A stretch of 64,000 bases of DNA from Desulfovulcanus ferrireducens (GTDB taxonomy: Bacteria > Desulfobacterota > Desulfovibrionia > Desulfovibrionales > Desulfonatronovibrionaceae): positions 1-64,000 of the forward strand of contig NZ_JAGUQP010000015.1 in the NCBI RefSeq assembly GCF_018704065.1, in the 5' to 3' direction. A model generated the notes under the pieces. It ran no database searches, was not told the origin of the DNA, and was given only the letters and a program-made list of their open reading frames with translations. A program made the position numbers and the translations under genes. Shown one piece after another: positions 6,098 through 40,302 of this stretch (position 1 is its first letter; the number at the start of each line of letters is the position of its first letter).

Positions 6098-6862
6098 ATG
6101 CTCTTAAAAGACAAAAAGGTACTTATCTTTGGTGTTGCCAATAATCGAAGTATTGCTTACGGCATTGCCAAAGTTTTTAAAGAAAATGGAGCCAGGTTGG
6201 CTTTCAACTACCTGGGCGAGGCCCTGAAAAAAAGAGTTGAGCCCATCAGTGAGGAACTTCAAAGCGAATTTATTTTCGACTGCGATGTAAGTAGAGATGA
6301 CCAAATCCAGGCCGCAGCCGAACTGGTTCAAGAAAAGTGGGGAAAAGTTGACGTTCTGGTTCATTCTGTTGCCTACGCGCAACGCGAAGACCTCCAAGGA
6401 CGCTTTATAGATACATCACGTAAGGGATTCCAGATTGCCATGGATATCTCTGCTTACTCTCTTGTCAGACTCTGCCAGGCCTTTGAGCCTATGTTCTCCG
6501 ATGATGCTTCAGTGATGACCATAACCTATTATGGTTCCCAGAAGGTTATCAAGAACTACAATGTCATGGGCGTGGCCAAAGCCGCCTTGGAAGCTTCTGT
6601 ACGCTATCTGGCTGTGGACCTCGGTCAAAAAGGCGTGCGCATCAATGCCATTAGTGCCGGCCCAATCAAAACCTTGGCCGCATCAGGCATTTCCGGCTTT
6701 AAAACCATCCTTAAAACCATTGAAGAAAAGGCACCATTGCACCGCAATGTTACTCAGGAAGATGTCGGCAAAACCGCCCTCTATCTTGCATCAAACCTCT
6801 CTACAGGGATGACAGGCGAGGTTCTTTACGTAGACTCAGGTTACAATATCTTGGGAATTTAA
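6098..6862 (+). CDS. fabI: Enoyl-[acyl-carrier-protein] reductase (NADH)
   Basis: Reduces the trans-2-enoyl-ACP intermediate in the last step of each fatty acid elongation cycle. The 254-residue SDR-fold protein has the divergent FabI cofactor motif GVANNRSIAYGIA near residue 13. The catalytic Tyr and Lys are found as YNVMGVAKAALE near residue 151-161, after TITYYGSQ. The substrate-loop region IKTLAASGISGF and the C-terminal YVDSGYNILGI also fit. RBS TAGGAG about 6 nt before the ATG. It follows purC by 9 nt. Its TAA stop abuts the ATG of the candidate selenoprotein ORF, so the two are likely translationally coupled. Confidence 0.95.
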   Translation: MLLKDKKVLIFGVANNRSIAYGIAKVFKENGARLAFNYLGEALKKRVEPISEELQSEFIFDCDVSRDDQIQAAAELVQEKWGKVDVLVHSVAYAQREDLQGRFIDTSRKGFQIAMDISAYSLVRLCQAFEPMFSDDASVMTITYYGSQKVIKNYNVMGVAKAALEASVRYLAVDLGQKGVRINAISAGPIKTLAASGISGFKTILKTIEEKAPLHRNVTQEDVGKTALYLASNLSTGMTGEVLYVDSGYNILGI

Positions 6863-7003
6863 ATGGAAGATTTATTAGTATTAGGACTTGTTTTTGTTGT
6901 CTGGATAATAGTAGTTAAATTTGTTTTCCCCAAACTTGGGATTCACGGCTGAGGCCCAAGTTCCAAGTCCTGCAGTTGGCAGGATAAAAAACGCGGTCAT
7001 TAA
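6863..7003 (+). CDS. Candidate small membrane selenoprotein (in-frame TGA at 6950-6952 read as Sec)
   Basis: Seen: an ATG immediately after the fabI stop opens a frame with one hydrophobic helix (about residues 4-22) and a short basic stretch ending PKLGIHG. It then meets TGA at 6950-6952, continues for 16 sense codons including a Cys, and ends at TAA 7001-7003. Read through, it is 46 residues with U30 and C37 after the membrane helix. Downstream, TCCTGC (6968-6973) and GCAGGA (6979-6984) form a perfect 6-bp stem with loop AGTTG, with G at the second loop position. The loop begins 21 nt after the TGA. Known: bacterial SECIS elements have a short apical stem, a loop with a G in its first two bases, and a loop 16-37 nt from UGA. 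selA is in this window. If TGA is a true stop, the product is a 29-residue membrane peptide. Function unknown; a redox role is inference. Confidence 0.6.
6953..6985 (+). promoter_or_regulatory. Bacterial SECIS-like hairpin after TGA
   Basis: A 6-bp perfect stem (6968-6973 with 6979-6984), extendable by one G-U pair (6967-6985), closes a 5-nt loop AGTTG 21 nt downstream of the in-frame TGA. The apical part (TGCAG...GCA) resembles my memory of the E. coli fdhF SECIS apex. It has no T-tract immediately after the stem typical of a terminator, and it lies inside an open frame. Its role is inferred from geometry only. Confidence 0.55.
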
Positions 7004-7106: not shown

Positions 7107-7200
<94 letters not shown>

Positions 7201-7223
7201 AAAAATGAAGAAGAGAAGATAAG

Positions 7224-7323
7224 AAAATAAGAAGTTAGTAAAATACGCAGGTGGCATAAAAAAATAGCTGAAAAGGTGTAAATATTTACTATGAAATTAC
7301 TATTTCACCTAACTTCTTATTTT
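7224..7323. repeat. Inverted repeat with 15-bp perfect arms
   Basis: AAAATAAGAAGTTAG at 7224-7238 is the exact reverse complement of 7309-7323; the arms are separated by about 70 nt. It lies between tRNA-Ser and the SRP RNA gene. No coding potential in the loop. A similar arm-loop arrangement with a related GAAGTT sequence lies at 42,568-42,658. Nature unknown; possibly a decayed palindromic element or a long-loop terminator for the tRNA. Confidence 0.5.
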
Positions 7324-7358
7324 CCAACAATTTCTTAACTTCATTCCTTAAAAAAACA

Positions 7359-7445
7359 GGGGAGCCAGGTGGCAAGGGCGCTGCTAACCCCGTCAGGCCC
7401 GAGAGGGAGCAGCGGTAACAGTTGCCCTTGGGTGCCTGGTTTCCC
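7359..7445 (+). ncRNA. ffs: 4.5S signal recognition particle RNA (bacterial small type)
   Basis: RNA component of the signal recognition particle, which with Ffh targets nascent membrane proteins to SecYEG. The conserved domain IV is visible: CCGTCAGGCCCGAGAGGGAGCAGCGG around 7389-7414 (internal loop GTCAGG, a GGNA-type tetraloop region and AGCAGC on the return side). The 5' GGGGA and 3' TTTCCC ends pair to close an approximately 87-nt hairpin, and the arms GCCAGGTGGCAAGGGC and GTTGCCCTTGGGTGCCTGGT are complementary. A strong terminator follows directly. Ends are estimated from the terminal pairing. Confidence 0.95.
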
Positions 7446-7446
7446 T

Positions 7447-7482
7447 AATAGGCACGACACATATGTCGTGCCTATTTTTTTG
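7447..7482 (+). terminator. Rho-independent terminator after ffs
   Basis: The perfect 13-bp stem AATAGGCACGACA / TGTCGTGCCTATT (7447-7459, 7464-7476), with a 4-nt loop, runs into a T-tract ending at 7481. Immediately downstream of the SRP RNA. It may also serve the convergent pseudouridine synthase gene on the minus strand, as the left arm begins with an A-rich stretch. Confidence 0.9.
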
Positions 7483-26261: not shown

Positions 26262-27674
26262 ATGAACACAAAAAACCTATTCAAGCATCTTCCTTCTGTG
26301 GATGCAATTTTAAATGCCATAAGTAGCGAAAAGATAGTCGCCAATCTTCCCAGGCCACTTGTCCGGGATCTTGTCAATGATTTTTTGAATCTGTGCCGGG
26401 AAGAGATCCGCAGCCAGATCATTACCAATGGCGAGCAGTTGAAGCTAGAAAATTTGAAGCCAAAAATCATGGCCTATATCCGAGCCCACAGCCGCCCCCA
26501 TTTTCGCCGGGTAATTAATGGCACCGGGGTGGTTATTCATACCAATCTGGGACGTTCCATCCTGGCCGAATCAGCCATTGAGGCAGTTGTCCATGCCTGC
26601 AGGCATTATTCCAATCTGGAATTTTCCTTAAAGACCGGTAAACGGGGCAGCCGTTACAGCCATGTAGAAGAGCTTTTGTGCCGCCTGACCGGGGCCGAAG
26701 CCGGTCTTGTAGTAAACAATAATGCCTCGGCTGTACTCATTATCCTGGACACCCTGGCCAAAGGCAAGGAGGTAATCGTTTCACGCGGGCAACTGGTGGA
26801 AATCGGAGGATCTTTTCGTATCCCAGAGGTCATGGCCAAAAGCGGAGCCATCTTGCGCGAAGTCGGGGCGACCAACAGAACCCACCTGCGCGACTATGAA
26901 AAGGCCATTGGCCCGGAAACGGCGGCCTTGCTTAAAGTGCATACATCCAACTACCGCATCATCGGCTTTCACAAGGAAGTGCAATTAAAAGAATTGGTTG
27001 CCTTAGGCCAAAAATACGGGTTACCTGTTCTGGAGGATATGGGCAGCGGTAACCTCTTTGATTTTTCTGCTTCTGGCTATTCCTTTATGCATGAGCCCAC
27101 TGTTCAGCAGGTGATCAAGGCAGGTGTTTCGGTAGTCTCTTTTAGCGGAGACAAACTTCTGGGCGGGCCCCAGGCCGGAATTATCCTCGGTCAAAAAGAA
27201 GTCATTGATAAAATCAAGAAAAATCCCATGAACCGTGCCGTGCGCATAGATAAAATGACCCTAGCAGCTTTAGAAGCTACTTTGCGCCTGTATCTGGACA
27301 TGGACCTGGCCCGGGAAAAGATACCCACAGTAAACATGATTACTTTATCTGAACAGGAACTTAAGCAAAAAGCCCGGAGACTAAAAAACAGGCTGGCCCG
27401 ACGCCTAAAAGACCATCTGGAATTGAAACTTATTCCCAATCACTCCAGGGTCGGGGGCGGAGCTTTTCCAGAGCAGGACTTGCCTACGACTCTTGTGGCC
27501 ATAAGGCCCAGACAAATGAGTATCGAAGACTTAAAAAACAGACTCCTGCACACAGAACCACCCTTGGTGGGCAGACTGGAGGATGATTATTTTTGCCTGG
27601 ATCCGCGAACCATTGCCCTCTCAGAATATAACCTGGTCTGCGAGGCCATTGAACAGGCGGTCGTGGGTGGATGA
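26262..27674 (+). CDS. selA: L-seryl-tRNA(Sec) selenium transferase
   Basis: PLP enzyme converting Ser-tRNA(Sec) to Sec-tRNA(Sec) with selenophosphate, in a large cytoplasmic ring. 470 residues of normal length: N-terminal tRNA-contacting domain LPSVDAIL..., then FRRVINGTGVVIHTNLGRS near 85, the PLP-anchoring Lys in FSGDKLLGGPQAG near residue 300, and the C-terminal VGGGAFPEQDLPTT. Its presence shows this organism makes selenocysteine, which bears directly on the candidate selenoprotein at 6,863-7,003. selB and selC are not in the window; the gene immediately downstream is unrelated. Followed by a short tandem repeat. Confidence 0.97.
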   Translation: MNTKNLFKHLPSVDAILNAISSEKIVANLPRPLVRDLVNDFLNLCREEIRSQIITNGEQLKLENLKPKIMAYIRAHSRPHFRRVINGTGVVIHTNLGRSILAESAIEAVVHACRHYSNLEFSLKTGKRGSRYSHVEELLCRLTGAEAGLVVNNNASAVLIILDTLAKGKEVIVSRGQLVEIGGSFRIPEVMAKSGAILREVGATNRTHLRDYEKAIGPETAALLKVHTSNYRIIGFHKEVQLKELVALGQKYGLPVLEDMGSGNLFDFSASGYSFMHEPTVQQVIKAGVSVVSFSGDKLLGGPQAGIILGQKEVIDKIKKNPMNRAVRIDKMTLAALEATLRLYLDMDLAREKIPTVNMITLSEQELKQKARRLKNRLARRLKDHLELKLIPNHSRVGGGAFPEQDLPTTLVAIRPRQMSIEDLKNRLLHTEPPLVGRLEDDYFCLDPRTIALSEYNLVCEAIEQAVVGG

Positions 27675-31437: not shown

Positions 31438-32409
31438 TTACTCCCCTAAAACATACATAAAAATAAGTGGGGCCACGATAGAAGCATCAGAGTTGATCAT
31501 AAACCGCGGGGTATCTGTATCCAGTTTATGCCAGGTAATTTTTTCATTGGGCACGGCCCCGGAGTACGAACCGTATGAGGTAGTACTGTCACCTATCTGG
31601 GCAAAGTAGGCCCAGTAGGGAGTATCCTTCTTCTTCACATCCTGAATGAGCATGGGTACCACGCATATGGCAAAATCGCCGGCAATACCTCCACCGATCT
31701 GGAAAAAGCCCACTGGAGCGCCATCCTCGACCTGCTTTTGATACCATTCGGCCAGGTGCTCCATTTGCTCGGTGCCGGTTCGCACGCCGTGGTGGCTGGG
31801 AATCTTGCCTCTCATCACATCAGCGCAATAGACATTGCCCAGAGTGGAGTCCTCAAAGCCAGGGGTATAGATCGGTATCCCCTTTTCCATGGCCGCATAG
31901 ACCCAGGAGTGCTCAGGCGGAATCTGAAAATATCTTTCAATGCCTGGGGTTTTCAGCAATTCATACATAAACTCCCAGGGAAATTTCGGCTTGCCTTTAG
32001 CAGCGGCCTCACGCCAATTATCCAGTAAAATCTTTTCAATATGTATCATAACTGATTCCGGGATGCAGGTGTCAGTGACCCGGTTAAAGCCCTGGTCTCG
32101 AAGTTCTCGTTCCTGCTCAGGAGTCAAATCCCTGTAATGGGGCACCATTTTATACTCTTTATTACTGAAAAGATTAAAAATATCTTCTTCCAAGTTGGCC
32201 GCGGTAGCGGAAATAGCATGGACTTTGTCCTCCCGGATCATCCTGGCCAGAGAGATGCCAATCTCTGCTGTACTCATTGCTCCGGCCATAGCCAAAAGCA
32301 TGCGCCCGCCCTTGTCCAGAAGCTCGCGCCAGGCCCTGGCCGCTTCCAGGGTTTCGCGGGCATTGAAGTGTTTGAAATTCTCTTCCATAAAAGCGCTTAT
32401 AGTTGTCAT
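31438..32409 (-). CDS. Deoxyhypusine synthase-like protein
   Basis: NAD-dependent aminobutyl-transfer fold (PF01916). Family motifs seen in the 323 residues: LLAMAGAMSTAEIGISLARMI near 38, a Rossmann-like core with FFQIGGGIAGDFAI near 236, YWAYFAQIGDSTTSYGS near 263, and ITWHKLDTDTPRFMIN near 295, where the Lys corresponds to the residue that forms the enzyme-imine intermediate in eukaryotic DHS. Bacteria lack eIF5A, so the true reaction must differ; bacterial homologues have been linked to polyamine synthesis such as homospermidine. Whether that holds here is inference. RBS AAGGAG 6 nt before ATG. No polyamine genes adjoin it. Confidence 0.85.
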   Translation of the reverse strand: MTTISAFMEENFKHFNARETLEAARAWRELLDKGGRMLLAMAGAMSTAEIGISLARMIREDKVHAISATAANLEEDIFNLFSNKEYKMVPHYRDLTPEQERELRDQGFNRVTDTCIPESVMIHIEKILLDNWREAAAKGKPKFPWEFMYELLKTPGIERYFQIPPEHSWVYAAMEKGIPIYTPGFEDSTLGNVYCADVMRGKIPSHHGVRTGTEQMEHLAEWYQKQVEDGAPVGFFQIGGGIAGDFAICVVPMLIQDVKKKDTPYWAYFAQIGDSTTSYGSYSGAVPNEKITWHKLDTDTPRFMINSDASIVAPLIFMYVLGE

Positions 32410-33391: not shown

Positions 33392-35661
33392 GTGCCAGGA
33401 GCTTGAAACCCCACAAAATTGCCTTTATCTCCTCTTTTTTGCCGCGGCAATGCGGCATTGCCACATTCACATCGGATCTCATCGCGCATGCCTCCGGGGC
33501 GTCTGCAGGCAAGCTGGATGCGGAAATCATCGCCATGGAGGCGGCTGATCACTTCAGCTACGACGACAAGGTCAAGCTCACCATTCGCAGGGATCAGCAG
33601 AGAGACTACCTGACTGCTGCCGACTACATCAACTACAGCGGCGTCAACCTGGTAAGCCTGCAGCACGAATATGGCCTGTTCGGCGGCAAGGCGGGAAGCT
33701 ACATCTGTGAACTCCTCGAGTGTCTTTCCATGCCGGTGGTTACAACCTTGCACACGGTATTGGAAAAGCCAGACCCTCAATATCGCGACGCCTTGGTCCG
33801 TATTGCAAGTGTCTCCAGCAAAATGGTGGTCATGAACCAACGCGGCATATCCATGCTGCGTGATAGCTACGGAGTGCCCGCGGACAAGATCGAGATGATC
33901 CCGCACGGCATCCCTGATCTGCCTTTTGAAGATTCCAGACCATATAAGCAGAGCCTAGGATTCAGGAACCGAAAGATCGCCCTGACCTTCGGCCTGCTAG
34001 GGCGCAACAAGGGTATCGAATGGACCATACGCGCACTTCCCGAGGTCGTTAAGCGAGATCCCTCCATCCTCTATCTTGTACTCGGGGCCACGCATCCGGA
34101 GGTAAAACGCAACGATGGCGAGGAATACCGCCTCTTTCTGCAACGGCTGGTGCATGATCTGGGCCTTGAACGCCACGTCGCATTCATTAATCGCTTCACC
34201 AACGATAATGAACTGCATCAGTTCCTGAATGCAGCCGACTATTATTTGACGCCATATTTGCACAAAGAACAGCTGACCAGCGGCACGCTGGCCTTCGCCG
34301 TCGGGATGGGCAAAGCAGTGATCTCCACCTCCTACTGGTATGCAGAGGAATTGCTGGACGACGGACGCGGCATACTGGTTCCATTCCGGGATTACGAGGC
34401 CATTGCCGCGGCCTTGATCAGCCTGATCGATAATCCGGCGGCATGTGATACTATGCGCAGGAGCGCCTTCGAGTATGGTCGTACCATGACCTGGACCAGG
34501 ACCGGTACGACCTACTGGCGTTTGTTCCAGCACCTGACGGCGCCGGCGGCTCCGTCTGCAGCCCTGGATATGGAAGCCGCGCCCACGAAACGAGTGACTC
34601 TCAAGGAACTTCCCGAGCTTCGCTTGGACCACTTCCTTCGCATGTCTGACGACACCGGCATCTTCCAGCATGCCATGCACACCATCCCGGACCGTGTCCA
34701 CGGCTACTGCACCGACGACAACGCCCGCGCTCTGGAGGTTATGGCCCGTTGTCATCACCAGTATCGGGATCAGGAGTCGCTCAGGCTGCTGGAAATCTAT
34801 TTTGCTTTTCTCCTCCATGCCAGGAAACCAGACGGGGGTTTTCACAATTTCATGTCCTATGAGCGGGAGTTTCTCCCACCAGTCCGGTCCGAGGACGCCA
34901 CTGCAAGGGCAGTCTGCGCCTTGGGAGCGCTCATCGCTCGTCCTCCAAGACCATCTCTGGCCGTCTTAGCTCAAGAGGCCTTCCTGGACGCCATGGCCAT
35001 AACAGATGACTTCAGCCTACGCGGCCGGGCCTACGAGATTTCCGGTCTTGCCGATTATCTCACGGGATTTCCCGATGATGTGCGCATGCGCCGGGAAATG
35101 GGCAAGGCCGCGAACTGTCTCATGCGGGCGTACCGACAATGCGCTACCCCTGATTGGGCATGGTTTGAAGACCTGTTGACCTACGACAACGCCGCGCTGC
35201 CACATGCCCTGTTTGTTGCCTCTGAAACGCTGGGGAACAAGATTTATCGTGAAACGGCCCTCGAGTCCTGCCGCTTCCTCATCGGGGCGACCTTCACCGG
35301 CAATCACTTTTCTTTCGTAGGTTGCAATGGCTGGTATCCCAAAGGTGCGGAAAAGGCCCGCTTTGATCAGCAACCCATTGAAGCGACATCCACTGTGCGC
35401 ATGTTGCGCGAGGCATTCGCGGCCACAGGGGACGTCTCCTTTATCAAGCTGATGCGCAAAGCGTTCAACTGGTTCTTTGGCCACAACGATGCGAGTGTCG
35501 CCCTGTTCGACTTCAGATCACGGGGTTGCTACGATGGCCTGACCCCGGACGGCGTCAACCTGAATCAGGGCGCGGAAAGCCTGATCAGCTACATGCTAGC
35601 GTACCTGAGCATAGAGGAAGAGCAGAACGCAGTCCCCGCCGTTAAGGCCGCAAATGTGTAA
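33388..35661 (+). CDS. GT4 glycosyltransferase fused to a helical (alpha/alpha-barrel-like) domain
   Basis: 757 residues. Residues 1-390 have the GT-B fold of family 4: IAFISSFLPRQCGIATFTSDL at the N-terminus, the LQHEYGLFGGK motif near 90, HTVLEKPDP, MIPHGIPDL near 171, and LGLLGRNKG-like FGLLGRNKGIEWTI. The usual EX7E motif is altered: the segment EQLTSGTLAFAVGMGKAVIS lacks the second Glu. After a Pro/Ala-rich linker (about 388-402), residues 405-745 are helical with repeated Trp/Tyr/Asp-rich turns (TDDNARAL, DWAWFEDLLTYDN, EATSTVRML), suggesting a toroidal glycan-active domain. Codon use is strongly GC-biased. It overlaps the HARE-HTH ORF by 4 nt. The sugar is probably mannose, judged from the GH130 neighbours. 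Confidence 0.85.
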   Translation: MSARSLKPHKIAFISSFLPRQCGIATFTSDLIAHASGASAGKLDAEIIAMEAADHFSYDDKVKLTIRRDQQRDYLTAADYINYSGVNLVSLQHEYGLFGGKAGSYICELLECLSMPVVTTLHTVLEKPDPQYRDALVRIASVSSKMVVMNQRGISMLRDSYGVPADKIEMIPHGIPDLPFEDSRPYKQSLGFRNRKIALTFGLLGRNKGIEWTIRALPEVVKRDPSILYLVLGATHPEVKRNDGEEYRLFLQRLVHDLGLERHVAFINRFTNDNELHQFLNAADYYLTPYLHKEQLTSGTLAFAVGMGKAVISTSYWYAEELLDDGRGILVPFRDYEAIAAALISLIDNPAACDTMRRSAFEYGRTMTWTRTGTTYWRLFQHLTAPAAPSAALDMEAAPTKRVTLKELPELRLDHFLRMSDDTGIFQHAMHTIPDRVHGYCTDDNARALEVMARCHHQYRDQESLRLLEIYFAFLLHARKPDGGFHNFMSYEREFLPPVRSEDATARAVCALGALIARPPRPSLAVLAQEAFLDAMAITDDFSLRGRAYEISGLADYLTGFPDDVRMRREMGKAANCLMRAYRQCATPDWAWFEDLLTYDNAALPHALFVASETLGNKIYRETALESCRFLIGATFTGNHFSFVGCNGWYPKGAEKARFDQQPIEATSTVRMLREAFAATGDVSFIKLMRKAFNWFFGHNDASVALFDFRSRGCYDGLTPDGVNLNQGAESLISYMLAYLSIEEEQNAVPAVKAANV

Positions 35662-35817
35662 CAGCGTCATCCATCAAGTCCTCCGAATTGCCCATTCTTG
35701 CAGCCGCATGACATCCTGGTGCCGGAGACGACGGCATTGCGAACATCCACTATTAAGCCCATGGACGGGCCTTTTGCGACTACATTATGAACAAATACGA
35801 CAAGAGGACCACAACCA

Positions 35818-37044
35818 ATGAAGCCAATCGTCATCATTTCCAGCTGGCCGCCGAGACTGTGCGGTATAGCCACCTTTGCCGAAGAGGCGCGTGAGTTCAT
35901 CCAAAAACATAATCCTACCCGCAAAGTGCTTGTGATCTGCCATACTGACGGCTCTGGTGACGGCGTCTTTCCCCTGATTGACATGACGCGGCACGGCTGG
36001 TGGAAGCCAGTGGTGAAAAAGATCAAGGAACTTGACCCCTCTGTCGTTCACATCGAGCATGAATATGGCCTCTATGAATTTTACGACGAACACGGCGCAG
36101 GCGACACAAACGCCGGTTTTCTGGCCTTGCTTAAGGCCATCCAGGACTATCCCATCGTGGTAGAACCGCACACGGTGCATGGCCGTTTGCGCGACGCAGA
36201 GGCCAATTTCATCTTTCAGTTGTGCAAGCTCGCTGATGTGGTGATGTTCAAGTGCGCCTACCAGAAATGGCGGCTCCATTGGACCTTCGATAGCTTCGAA
36301 TGGACGATGCCACGCAACATCATGATCGTGCCGCATGGCGCTCGACCCGATCGGCGCTGGCCGGTAGAAAAGGTACCTGAGCTGCGCGCCGAACTAGGGC
36401 TGGACCGAGCGTGCTGCCTCGGCCCCCACCTGGTTGGTCTGGTCGGGTGGATCCAAGCGAACAAGCGCTGGGACATCCTGATATCCATGTGGCGGGACAT
36501 CGCCATTGAAATCAAGCGCTGCACCGGCGAGGAGTGGGATCTACTGGCGGCCGGCGCCATGCGCGATCCCCGTGACCTGTCGAACTACGAAAAATACAAG
36601 AGCGAGGTAGAACTGCTGGAACGCGAGGGACTGGCGCACTACTACGAGTTTGTTCCGCGCGGAGATATCTACTACAAGGTGATGGCGGTCTGCGACTTCA
36701 TCGTACTGCCTTCCCAGGATGAAACACAATCCGGCACCCTGGCACGTATCATCGCCCTGAACAAGCCCTATATCACCACGGCACCGATGGAGGGGCTGAC
36801 CTCACAGACACTGGAAAGTGAAGGCGGCCTCATGTTTACCACGAAGAAGATGCTGAAGGAGAAGGTCATCCGCCTGGCCTGCTCCGAGGAACTGCGCATG
36901 AAGCTTGGCAGTAACCTCCGGCGCTACCTGGATGAGGTGGTATCATGGGACGTGGTGGTCAAACAGTACAACAAGGCCTACCGCCTAGCCCGCAAGGCGA
37001 AGCGAACAGGGAAAACGCCGGAACTGCCCATGGAGTTCGAATGA
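35818..37044 (+). CDS. GT4-type glycosyltransferase
   Basis: 408 residues, GT-B fold. The N-terminus IISSWPPRLCGIATFAEEAREF and the acceptor-domain IEHEYGLYEFYDE closely parallel the first glycosyltransferase, so the two are homologous. The C-terminal nucleotide-sugar domain has VPHGARPD near 178, LVGLVGWIQANKRWDILI, and PSQDETQSGTLARIIALNKPYITT near 304, again a variant motif without the second Glu of EX7E. RBS AGAGGA upstream of ATG. It is separated from the previous gene by 156 bp, the largest gap in the cluster. It overlaps the first GH130 gene by 4 nt (ATGA). Likely adds a sugar to the same glycan. Confidence 0.85.
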   Translation: MKPIVIISSWPPRLCGIATFAEEAREFIQKHNPTRKVLVICHTDGSGDGVFPLIDMTRHGWWKPVVKKIKELDPSVVHIEHEYGLYEFYDEHGAGDTNAGFLALLKAIQDYPIVVEPHTVHGRLRDAEANFIFQLCKLADVVMFKCAYQKWRLHWTFDSFEWTMPRNIMIVPHGARPDRRWPVEKVPELRAELGLDRACCLGPHLVGLVGWIQANKRWDILISMWRDIAIEIKRCTGEEWDLLAAGAMRDPRDLSNYEKYKSEVELLEREGLAHYYEFVPRGDIYYKVMAVCDFIVLPSQDETQSGTLARIIALNKPYITTAPMEGLTSQTLESEGGLMFTTKKMLKEKVIRLACSEELRMKLGSNLRRYLDEVVSWDVVVKQYNKAYRLARKAKRTGKTPELPMEFE

Positions 37045-38000
37045 TGGCCGGCACGATGGCTCTCTTCCAGCGCCACCCGGATAATCCGCTCCTGACCGTG
37101 CAGGCACTGCCCTATGCGGCCAACGCCGTGTTCAATCCCGGCGTAGCCGAGGTCGACGGCGAAACCCTGCTGCTCATGCGGGTCGAAGCCCTTTGCGGCC
37201 GATCTCACCTGACCTGCGCCCGCAGCCGCGACGGTATAGGAGACTGGCGGGTGGACAGCGCCCCCGTCCTGGCCCCCGGCTCCAAGAAATATCCAGAAGA
37301 GGCCTGGGGCGTGGAGGATCCCCGCATTACATTTATCGAGGACCTGGCGGAGTGGGTAATCGCCTACACGGCCTATTCAGAATGCGGACCACTCGTGTCC
37401 CTGGCCACGACCCGGGACTTTCTTTCCTTCCGGAGGTTGGGGCCGGCACTGCCGCCGGAAAACAAAGACGCCGCGCTCTTTCCCCGACGCATTGGCGACC
37501 GCTATTGCATGCTGCATCGCCCCGCTCCAGCCATGCCTGGCGTCTCCGCACACATCTGGATTTCCTATTCTCCCGACCTGCGTTCATGGGGCGGCCACCG
37601 GCTGTTGCTGCCGGCCCGGGTTCCGGGTTTCTGGGACAGCGCCAAGATCGGCATTGCCACGCCGCCCCTGGCCACATCCGAAGGCTGGGTGATCCTCTAC
37701 CACGGCGTGCGCCGCATGGGTGCGGCGTATATCTACCGTCTGGGGTTGGCGTTGCTCGATCTCGATGATCCGAGCCACGTGATCCGCCGTCTGGACAACT
37801 GGGTATTCGGCCCCGAGGCCCACTGTGAGCGGATAGGCGATACCCCCAACGTCGTCTTTCCCTGTGGATGGCTCCTCGACGGAGACGAAATCCGGCTGTA
37901 CTACGGCGCCGCCGACACCTGCATAGCGCTCGCCACTGCCAGTCTTGATAAATTGCTCGCCTGCCTTCTGGACCATCCATGCAAAGGAGGCATCAGATGA
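37041..38000 (+). CDS. GH130 family beta-mannoside phosphorylase/hydrolase, first copy
   Basis: Five-bladed beta-propeller enzyme; characterised GH130 members cleave beta-1,2- or beta-1,4-mannosides, mostly by phosphorolysis giving mannose-1-phosphate. Family marks in about 319 residues: NPLLT near the N-terminus, AWGVEDPRITFI near 88 (catalytic Asp in EDPR), an IWISYSPDLRSWGGH blade, DSAKIGIATPP, and LYHGVRRMGAAYIYRLGLALLDL. The start is the ATG at 37,041 (or 37,044), overlapping the GT4 stop, with GGAG just upstream. The open frame from 36,945 lies in the GT4 gene and is not GH130-like. Phosphate-binding residues cannot be judged by eye, so phosphorylase versus hydrolase is open. Confidence 0.9.
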   Translation: MMAGTMALFQRHPDNPLLTVQALPYAANAVFNPGVAEVDGETLLLMRVEALCGRSHLTCARSRDGIGDWRVDSAPVLAPGSKKYPEEAWGVEDPRITFIEDLAEWVIAYTAYSECGPLVSLATTRDFLSFRRLGPALPPENKDAALFPRRIGDRYCMLHRPAPAMPGVSAHIWISYSPDLRSWGGHRLLLPARVPGFWDSAKIGIATPPLATSEGWVILYHGVRRMGAAYIYRLGLALLDLDDPSHVIRRLDNWVFGPEAHCERIGDTPNVVFPCGWLLDGDEIRLYYGAADTCIALATASLDKLLACLLDHPCKGGIR

Positions 38001-39343
38001 GAATAGCACTGATCTCGCCCATTGCCTGGCGCACGCCGCCCAGGCATTACGGCCCATGGGAACAGGTGGTCGCCTTGCTGGCGGATGGTCTCGTGGCCAG
38101 GAGGCATGATGTCACCCTGTTCGCTACCGGTGATTCCTGCACCACCGCACGTCTGCGAACTATCTGCCCGCGTCCCTATGAGGAGGATAAATCGCTGGAT
38201 CCCAAAGTGTGGGAATGCATGCATATCGCAGAAGTGTTTGAAGACGCGGATGATTTCGATATCATCCACAATCACTTTGATTTCCTGCCATTGAGCTATA
38301 CTGGCTCGGTTTCCATTCCGATGGTGACAACGATTCACGGCTTTTCCTCCGAGGCCATCCTCCCGGCATACGAGCGATACAACGACAGAACAGCCTATGT
38401 ATCCATCAGCAACGCAGACCGGAGCGATCGGCTCGATTATGCCGCTACCGTCTATCACGGCATTGACCTGGCGCAATTTACCTTTCAACCCGAGGCCGGA
38501 AGCTACCTGCTATTCTTCGGACGCATCCACCCGGACAAGGGCGCGGCCGAAGCGATCGCTATCGCCCGGGCGGCGGGTATGCTGCTGGTCATGGCTGGCC
38601 CTGTCCAGGATAAATCTTACTTCGCAAGCCAGATCAAACCGCATGTTGACGGCCAGACGGTCCGCTATCTGGGTGCGGTCGGTCCAGTGGAACGCAACCG
38701 GCTGCTTGGCGGCGCCTATGCCCTGTTGCACCCCATCGCCTTTGCCGAGCCATTCGGTCTCTCCGTTGTGGAGGCCATGGCCTGCGGCGCACCGGTAGTG
38801 GCCTTCGCCAAAGGTTCAATGCCGGAGTTGATCAGGGATGGAGAAACCGGATTTCTCGTCCACAGCGTAGAAGAGGCCGTGCATGCCCTCAGGCTGATTC
38901 CGGAGATTTCGCGAACAAGGTGCCGTCGGGAGGCGGAGACGCGGTTTTCCGCCGAACGCATGGTGAAGGATTATATCGCCGTCTACAAACATATAATAGC
39001 CGACCAGGAAAACATACGGCCATGGGGCTATTACGAAGTGCTCTCCGACAGGCCTGGGCACAAGGTCAAGCGCATTACCGTGTATGCTGGCAAGCGTCTG
39101 TCACTGCAACGGCACCGACGACGTTCCGAACACTGGCACATCGTGCGGGGCGCGGCCGTGGCGCAGGTGGGAGATAAGAAGCATCGCCTGGGCATGCGGG
39201 ATTCCGTAGATATTCCGTGCGGCGCTGCCCATCGCATCGCCAACGTGGGCGAAGACGACATGGTATTTATCGAGGTGCAGCAAGGGGAGTATTTCGGCGA
39301 GGACGACATCGAGCGGTTAGAGGACGATTATGGCCGGACATAG
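37997..39343 (+). CDS. GT4 glycosyltransferase fused to a C-terminal ManC-type cupin
   Basis: 448 residues. Residues 1-340 are a canonical GT4: MRIALISPIAWRTPPRHYGPWE at the start, IHNHFDFLPL and TTIHGFSSEA, LFFGRIHPDKGA near 172, then the intact EX7E motif FAEPFGLSVVEAMACGAPVV near 247. Residues about 345-448 are the type II mannose-6-phosphate isomerase cupin usually found at the C-terminus of ManC: RPWGYYEVL, SLQRHRRRSEHWHIV with metal-binding His/Glu, and DSVDIPCGAAHRIAN. The start at 37,997 is chosen for AAAGGAGG 6 nt upstream; it overlaps the previous stop. The fusion couples fructose-6-P/mannose-6-P interconversion to glycosyl transfer, strengthening a mannose assignment. I know no described example of this exact fusion. 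Confidence 0.87.
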   Translation: MRIALISPIAWRTPPRHYGPWEQVVALLADGLVARRHDVTLFATGDSCTTARLRTICPRPYEEDKSLDPKVWECMHIAEVFEDADDFDIIHNHFDFLPLSYTGSVSIPMVTTIHGFSSEAILPAYERYNDRTAYVSISNADRSDRLDYAATVYHGIDLAQFTFQPEAGSYLLFFGRIHPDKGAAEAIAIARAAGMLLVMAGPVQDKSYFASQIKPHVDGQTVRYLGAVGPVERNRLLGGAYALLHPIAFAEPFGLSVVEAMACGAPVVAFAKGSMPELIRDGETGFLVHSVEEAVHALRLIPEISRTRCRREAETRFSAERMVKDYIAVYKHIIADQENIRPWGYYEVLSDRPGHKVKRITVYAGKRLSLQRHRRRSEHWHIVRGAAVAQVGDKKHRLGMRDSVDIPCGAAHRIANVGEDDMVFIEVQQGEYFGEDDIERLEDDYGRT

Positions 39344-40286
39344 ACTCGTCCGCCGTCACGAGCAAAATCCAATCCTGACGCCGGATAACGTGCCTTACCC
39401 GGTGGCCACCGTGCACAACGCTGCCGTGATACGGCATAACGACCGCTACGTGATGCTGTTCCGTGCCCATTTGCGCAACGGCCATTCGGTCATTGGCATG
39501 GCAGAAAGCGGAGACGGATTCCGCTTCAAGGTCCGGCCCGAACCCTGGCTAACGCCCGCTGGTGACGGCGTATTCGGCGAATACGAGGCCTTCGGAGTGG
39601 AGGATCCTCGCATCTGTCGGATCGATGGTGCATATTACATCACCTACAGCGCCTATTCAGCGCACGGCGTGCGCATCGCACTCGCCAGAACAGAGGATTT
39701 CCAGCACGTCGAGCGCATCGCACTAATCACGCAAGCGGATTATCGCAACGTCGTCCTCTTTCCACAACGTTTTAACGGCCGCTACGCGCGTTTGGACCGG
39801 CCACACACCGACAGCACCCCCTGGTCTATCTGGATTTCCTACTCTTCCGACCTCATCCATTGGGGTGAATCACGACGGCTGATGGCGTCCTTGCCGTACC
39901 ATTGGGATGAGCTAAAGATTGGGCCCGGCGCCACGCCGTTTGCCACGGACCGGGGCTGGCTGCACATCTTCCACGGTGTCTTCCAGACAATGAACGGAGC
40001 CGTCTATCGACTCGGCGCCGCCCTGCACGCCCTCCATGACCCGGCAAGGATCGTGGCGGTGACGGATGAGTGGATCCTCGAACCGGAAGAACCGTGGGAA
40101 CGTTCAGGCTATGTGCCCAACGTGGTGTTCTGCTGCGGCGCAGTCCCCGAAGCAGACGGAACCGTGAAAATCTACTGGGGCGGAGCTGATACCGTAATGT
40201 GCGCCGGCAGTGCAGATATTGAGGAACTCGTGGATGCGTGTCTGCAGCGGCCACGGCCGGCACTGCCAGATAGTAATGGAAAATGA
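39330..40286 (+). CDS. GH130 family beta-mannoside phosphorylase/hydrolase, second copy
   Basis: 318 residues, homologous to the first GH130: NPILTPDNVPYPVATVHNAA near 12, EAFGVEDPRICRIDG near 88 with the catalytic Asp, YYITYSAYS, SIWISYSSDLIHWGES, WDELKIGPGATPF, and HIFHGVFQTMNGAVYRLGAAL. Differences around the substrate loops (no -PP after KIG; GNGHSVIG-like segment) suggest a different chain-length or acceptor preference, as seen for the paired GH130 enzymes described in Thermoanaerobacter. Overlaps the GT4-cupin gene by 14 nt. Last gene of the island; its stop is 16 nt before an IS-end-like repeat. Confidence 0.9.
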   Translation: MAGHRLVRRHEQNPILTPDNVPYPVATVHNAAVIRHNDRYVMLFRAHLRNGHSVIGMAESGDGFRFKVRPEPWLTPAGDGVFGEYEAFGVEDPRICRIDGAYYITYSAYSAHGVRIALARTEDFQHVERIALITQADYRNVVLFPQRFNGRYARLDRPHTDSTPWSIWISYSSDLIHWGESRRLMASLPYHWDELKIGPGATPFATDRGWLHIFHGVFQTMNGAVYRLGAALHALHDPARIVAVTDEWILEPEEPWERSGYVPNVVFCCGAVPEADGTVKIYWGGADTVMCAGSADIEELVDACLQRPRPALPDSNGK

Positions 40287-40302
40287 CGGGAACAGGACTT
40301 TA

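Follow-up and report, generated by a model that had tools for sequence, protein, structure and literature searches.

The eukaryotic selenoproteins K and S are small, single-span proteins whose selenocysteine (Sec) lies in a C-terminal tail that is flexible, basic and exposed to the cytosol. The gene analyzed here, for which the working name smsU is used, lies within a 64,000-nucleotide stretch of Desulfovulcanus ferrireducens DNA (the window). Its predicted family would give bacteria a small, single-span membrane protein with a tail Sec resembling these two, the likeness being one of architecture only. The differences are that in smsU the Sec is close to the membrane and not C-terminal, that the SECIS element is bacterial and in frame, and that the members have 44-66 residues.

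For prokaryotes, 119 selenoprotein families and subfamilies were tabulated in 2026 (PMC13188914). These families, and the NCBIfam models that underlie many of them, share with smsU a UGA-encoded Sec, a bacterial SECIS (bSECIS) and, often, a nearby Cys, but none of the 119 has the smsU architecture, and the deep-Sep set holds no such family. Scanning 47 members against Pfam and NCBIfam returned no credible match (stray matches, with E above 0.001), and the PDB yielded no credible family match for the smsU protein. The FeoB-associated Cys-rich membrane protein (PF12669) is also tiny and consists of a single helix with a tail that contains Cys, but a single one of the 47 members matches it, weakly, and in smsU Sec replaces Cys. 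A literature search that left aside supplementary tables, preprints and GenBank annotation found no description of the family. The smsU family is absent from current family libraries, which does not prove priority.

The smsU gene and its predicted selenocysteine codon

The features considered are the following, all on the forward strand of the window:

6098..6862, +, fabI, enoyl-ACP reductase (best NCBIfam matches are FabI models; its stop abuts the smsU ATG)
6863..7003, +, smsU, open reading frame (from the read-through translation and from homologues in the order and the phylum sample)
6872..6930, +, codons of a predicted transmembrane helix, about residues 4-22 (from the translation; hydrophobic stretch kept in all members)
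6950..6952, +, UGA codon predicted to be read as Sec (from codon identity across homologous loci)
6967..6985, +, bacterial SECIS-like hairpin, stem GTCCTGC/GCAGGAT, loop AGTTG at 6974-6978 (fits the bSECIS model)
26262..27674, +, selA, L-seryl-tRNA(Sec) selenium transferase (TIGR00474, 632 bits, cut-off 268)

The preliminary description had proposed a frame opening right after the fabI stop and encoding one membrane helix, a TGA and a Cys seven residues on, with an AGTTG-loop hairpin 21 nt past the TGA, and all of this is borne out. The fabI TAA occupies 6860-6862 and the smsU ATG starts at 6863; the TGA is codon 30, the Cys codon 37, and a TAA at 7001-7003 closes the frame, which runs from the hydrophobic helix through the turn FPKLGIHG and the TGA to the tail. 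Read through, the product would be a single-span membrane protein of 46 residues, MEDLLVLGLVFVVWIIVVKFVFPKLGIHG-U-GPSSKSCSWQDKKRGH, with Sec as residue 30.

The same description had located selA in the window, as is indeed the case, and had made the Sec reading depend on selB and selC, which lay outside its view. The genome contains both: one further contig carries selB (409.8 bits) and a third carries tRNA-Sec (83.1 bits). Given that selB scores above cut-off in 284 of 348 genomes of the order, its presence does not discriminate within the order. The smsU members without a full selB are, with few exceptions, in fragmented or incomplete genomes.

When the order loci were read codon by codon, the Sec position was TGA in 79 of 80 and TGC in one (L091), and TAA or TAG occurred in none; one of these loci, L079, failed the motif filter yet reads QKLGIGGUG. 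In both profiles used for the searches the Sec column was entered as Cys, so that they favour Cys over a stop. Named genomes were searched on the basis of a narrower alignment whose Sec column was set to X, using only the pattern [LI]NR[WF][VI][FL]PK[LM], which stops upstream of the Sec codon; all 35 loci confirmed from this pattern have TGA. A further 21 copies, weak matches and a tandem pair included, have TGA as well. The Cys homologue that the preliminary description had suggested looking for thus exists in L091 alone, and the rarity of Cys forms makes the family close to Sec-only. Genome-wide recoding of TGA was considered and rejected, since other genes at the smsU loci terminate at TGA.

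Taken singly, the window's own hairpin is only suggestive. Its 7-pair stem starts 14 nt and its loop 21 nt after the TGA, and it is statistically weak (fold z = -1.57; p = 0.064 under a synonymous-codon null). Across the family, the hairpin is far beyond chance: a threshold is passed by 83% of 138 members versus 7-12% of controls (ordinary stops and random TGAs from the same DNA), and the stems score 14.7 on average, compared with 8.8 under synonymous recoding. Among 110 distinct hairpins, the loop mostly starts 18-24 nt past the UGA (most commonly 18, 21, 22 or 24 nt), with G at loop position 2 in 99 and U or G at position 3 in 100, i.e., NG[U/G]NN. This matches the published bSECIS model, which has G[G/U] at the first loop positions and a spacing of 16-37 nt (PMC13188914). 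The stem covaries: each of its positions is filled by more than two or three fixed bases, in several types of pair, and compensatory variants occur, such as GGGGUGC/GCACCCC, UCGGAUC/GAUCUGA, GGGAUCC/GGAUUCC and CGGCAGU/ACUGCAG. Stem pairs 1-4 are canonical through the selection of the sample; pair 5, which is outside that selection, is canonical in 94% of cases versus 65% when shuffled. In a simple scan, some members (e.g., L059, L060, L206 and L211) present weak hairpins only.

If the TGA were instead an ordinary stop, smsU would encode a membrane peptide of only 29 residues, and both the hairpin and the similarity past the codon would reflect chance or a terminator. Such a reading would account for a conserved membrane helix that ends at the TGA and for conservation that is weaker after the codon than before it. 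It is nevertheless extremely improbable: neither the 80 order loci nor the 35 pattern-search loci substitute TAA or TAG at this codon, the one Cys replacement has lost the SECIS-like hairpin too, the hairpin geometry is of SECIS type, and a motif past the TGA is kept across the phylum. On comparative-genomic grounds we therefore consider it almost certain that the smsU TGA is read as Sec and that smsU belongs to a widespread, unannotated selenoprotein family of sulfate reducers and related bacteria. This confidence extends to Sec coding and the family claim only, separately from function.

Distribution and anatomy of the family

A six-frame search reading through stops was first applied to the genomes of the host's taxonomic family, nearly all of which have a homologue, in most cases by far interrupted by a single TGA in frame. 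In the order, a first profile found homologues in 111 of 348 genomes, and an improved profile found homologues spanning the TGA in 147. In an even sample of the phylum, the profile found a homologue in 169 of 395 genomes and 113 of 246 genera, which would make smsU a selenoprotein of nearly half the sampled genera of a major anaerobic phylum. The members from named genomes are mostly Desulfobacterota (Desulfarculaceae, Syntrophobacteraceae, Desulfomonile, Desulfuromonas, Desulforhabdus), and the pattern search of these genomes also returned three Spirochaetota genomes and one KSB1 genome. A search of plasmids gave no match. The family exposes a blind spot: genes that are very short and whose Cys homologues are extremely few are missed by gene callers and also by selenoprotein finders built around Cys homologues.

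The family anatomy can be written M-x-[DE]-LL-helix-[KR]-x-[VI]-[FL]-PK-[LI]-G-I-x-G-U-G-P-x(3-5)-SC-basic tail, and LNRWVFPKLGVxTUMSxSC is the common form outside the order. Similarity had been expected to cross the TGA, with the codons beyond it conserved; the homologues do run through it, none was found ending there, and the motif UGPxxxSCSWQPK is conserved. The membrane helix followed by PKLG..U, which the preliminary description offered tentatively for short deltaproteobacterial proteins, does exist and serves as the signature of the family. Purifying selection acts both before and after the Sec but is weaker after it, with pN/pS of 0.31 before versus 0.60 after, the latter value being inflated by indels.

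A Cys lies 6-8 residues past the Sec in 71 of 79 order loci and is missing from this position in eight. In one subgroup (L049-L053), Cys precedes the Sec (PSCGFQGGU or PRCGFDGU) and none follows closely behind, as though the redox partner had changed sides. One locus (L366, G225 contig 17:87381-87728) has two diverged tandem copies, both of which keep the TGA, and tandem copies were likewise reported in G215 and G217.

Gene neighbourhood and an FmdB-family gene with a C-terminal UGA

The neighbours of smsU differ widely between lineages; in high-GC genomes, spurious ORFs make their clustering noisy. The arrangement hisD-purC-fabI is found upstream of smsU in 30-odd of 79 order loci, and the adjacency to fabI holds in part of the order. 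As a functional clue this context was rejected, given about half of the order members are located elsewhere; with a position that varies in this way, the neighbourhood evidence does not make fabI the functional partner of smsU. Just downstream of smsU, the window has a tRNA-Ser(GGA) and a small SRP RNA (7107-7451). A ccdA-like membrane thiol-redox gene is directly upstream of smsU in L156 and L171, and in L156 an FmdB-Sec gene is downstream.

The neighbourhood also bears on whether smsU encodes a selenium-responsive regulatory peptide, in which read-through of the UGA would act as a selenium sensor and the Sec residue would not be catalytic. The very short product, the ATG abutting the fabI stop in the host genus and the relaxed selection past the Sec are in keeping with this proposal. 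Since neighbours vary, however, no conserved regulated gene is seen, and the Sec, the PKLG turn and the basic tail with its Cys are conserved as protein features. We consider such a role very improbable.

The FmdB family (TIGR02605) provides the recurrent neighbour. In 32 of 139 loci, smsU has a zinc-ribbon gene of this family on the same strand, either upstream or downstream, at a distance of no more than about 450 nt. Of these loci, 25 are distinct, six in one genus of the order and nineteen outside the order (the FmdB-adjacent loci are L104-L110, L154-L178, L186, L201, L209, L215 and L216). The N-terminal CxxC...CPxC domain of the neighbour exceeds the curated cut-off of the family, but the protein would differ from it in carrying a Sec beside the C-terminus, CGSSGFSU[GA]. 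FmdB proteins with Sec are known from marine metagenomes, with a CxxU motif, unlike the C-terminal Sec proposed here.

The 25 distinct frames close with GFS, GFK, GFG, AFT or a comparable ending, after which come TGA and then G or A (C in one), and a second stop mostly follows. A SECIS-like hairpin is found 16-20 nt past this TGA, mostly 3' of the stop codon. Ordinary FmdB paralogues of the same genomes end in CxGCSGGxCxxC, with mixed stops and mostly without such a hairpin. The FmdB gene with the C-terminal UGA thus probably encodes a second selenoprotein, to which the smsU family points. In the host genome, the Sec-type gene (L226) does not adjoin smsU; it is at 70803-71006 of contig 15, about 6.8 kb beyond the window end.

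In a small genome test, the Sec-type FmdB was not found in every genome carrying smsU: it was present in about 12 of 20 smsU genomes, in 3 of 14 without smsU but with selB, and in none of six without selB, a count made partly by eye and of moderate support. From the recurrent gene adjacency, the smsU protein appears to work with the C-terminal-Sec FmdB in many lineages, and since the two are so often adjacent, a shared function can be tested directly. That the two form a membrane-tethered, two-selenoprotein redox couple, widespread in Desulfobacterota, is a proposal we judge evenly balanced between being right and wrong. The couple would have stayed unannotated because the smsU gene is too short and the FmdB gene looks complete at its UGA.

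Topology and possible function

The mean net charge of the members is -0.66 at residues 2-5 and +3.3 in the tail. By the positive-inside rule, this slightly acidic N-terminus and strongly basic tail suggest that the helix should be oriented N-out/C-in, which would bring the Sec to the cytoplasmic surface of the membrane. In the mechanism we envisage, ribosomes would read the UGA at 6950-6952 as Sec by means of SelB, tRNA-Sec and the SECIS hairpin inside the coding region, and the Sec, a few residues past the conserved PKLG turn, would face the cytoplasm at the membrane. The Cys that in this order is usually 6-8 residues further on could serve as its thiol partner, and the Se-S bond would cycle, passing electrons or reducing a substrate near the membrane. 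As some members lack the partner Cys, the Se-S pair would not be universal. The smsU product is therefore only tentatively assigned as a membrane-tethered selenol/thiol redox protein, an assignment we place a little short of an even chance. The preliminary description had suggested a thiol/selenol redox role as well, and this proposal stays plausible.

The main rival to a redox function accepts smsU as a real selenoprotein and has the selenol/thiol pair binding a soft metal or metalloid (Hg, As, Cu or Zn) at the membrane. The weak match to PF12669 (E = 0.004), the zinc ribbon of the FmdB partner and the ArsR-like regulator genes found downstream of smsU in a few loci all point in this direction. 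On the other hand, one Sec and usually one Cys, itself absent in some members, provide few ligands, and metal transporters were not among the recurrent neighbours. Metal binding is accordingly regarded as unlikely, with redox activity remaining the preferred function.

Two further observations concern the rest of the window. A protein resembling deoxyhypusine synthase or homospermidine synthase, scoring under every family cut-off, is encoded on the minus strand at 31438-32409. The region 33400-40300 has 57-60% G+C versus a background of 45%, contains glycosyltransferase-like and glycosidase-like genes, and was probably acquired.
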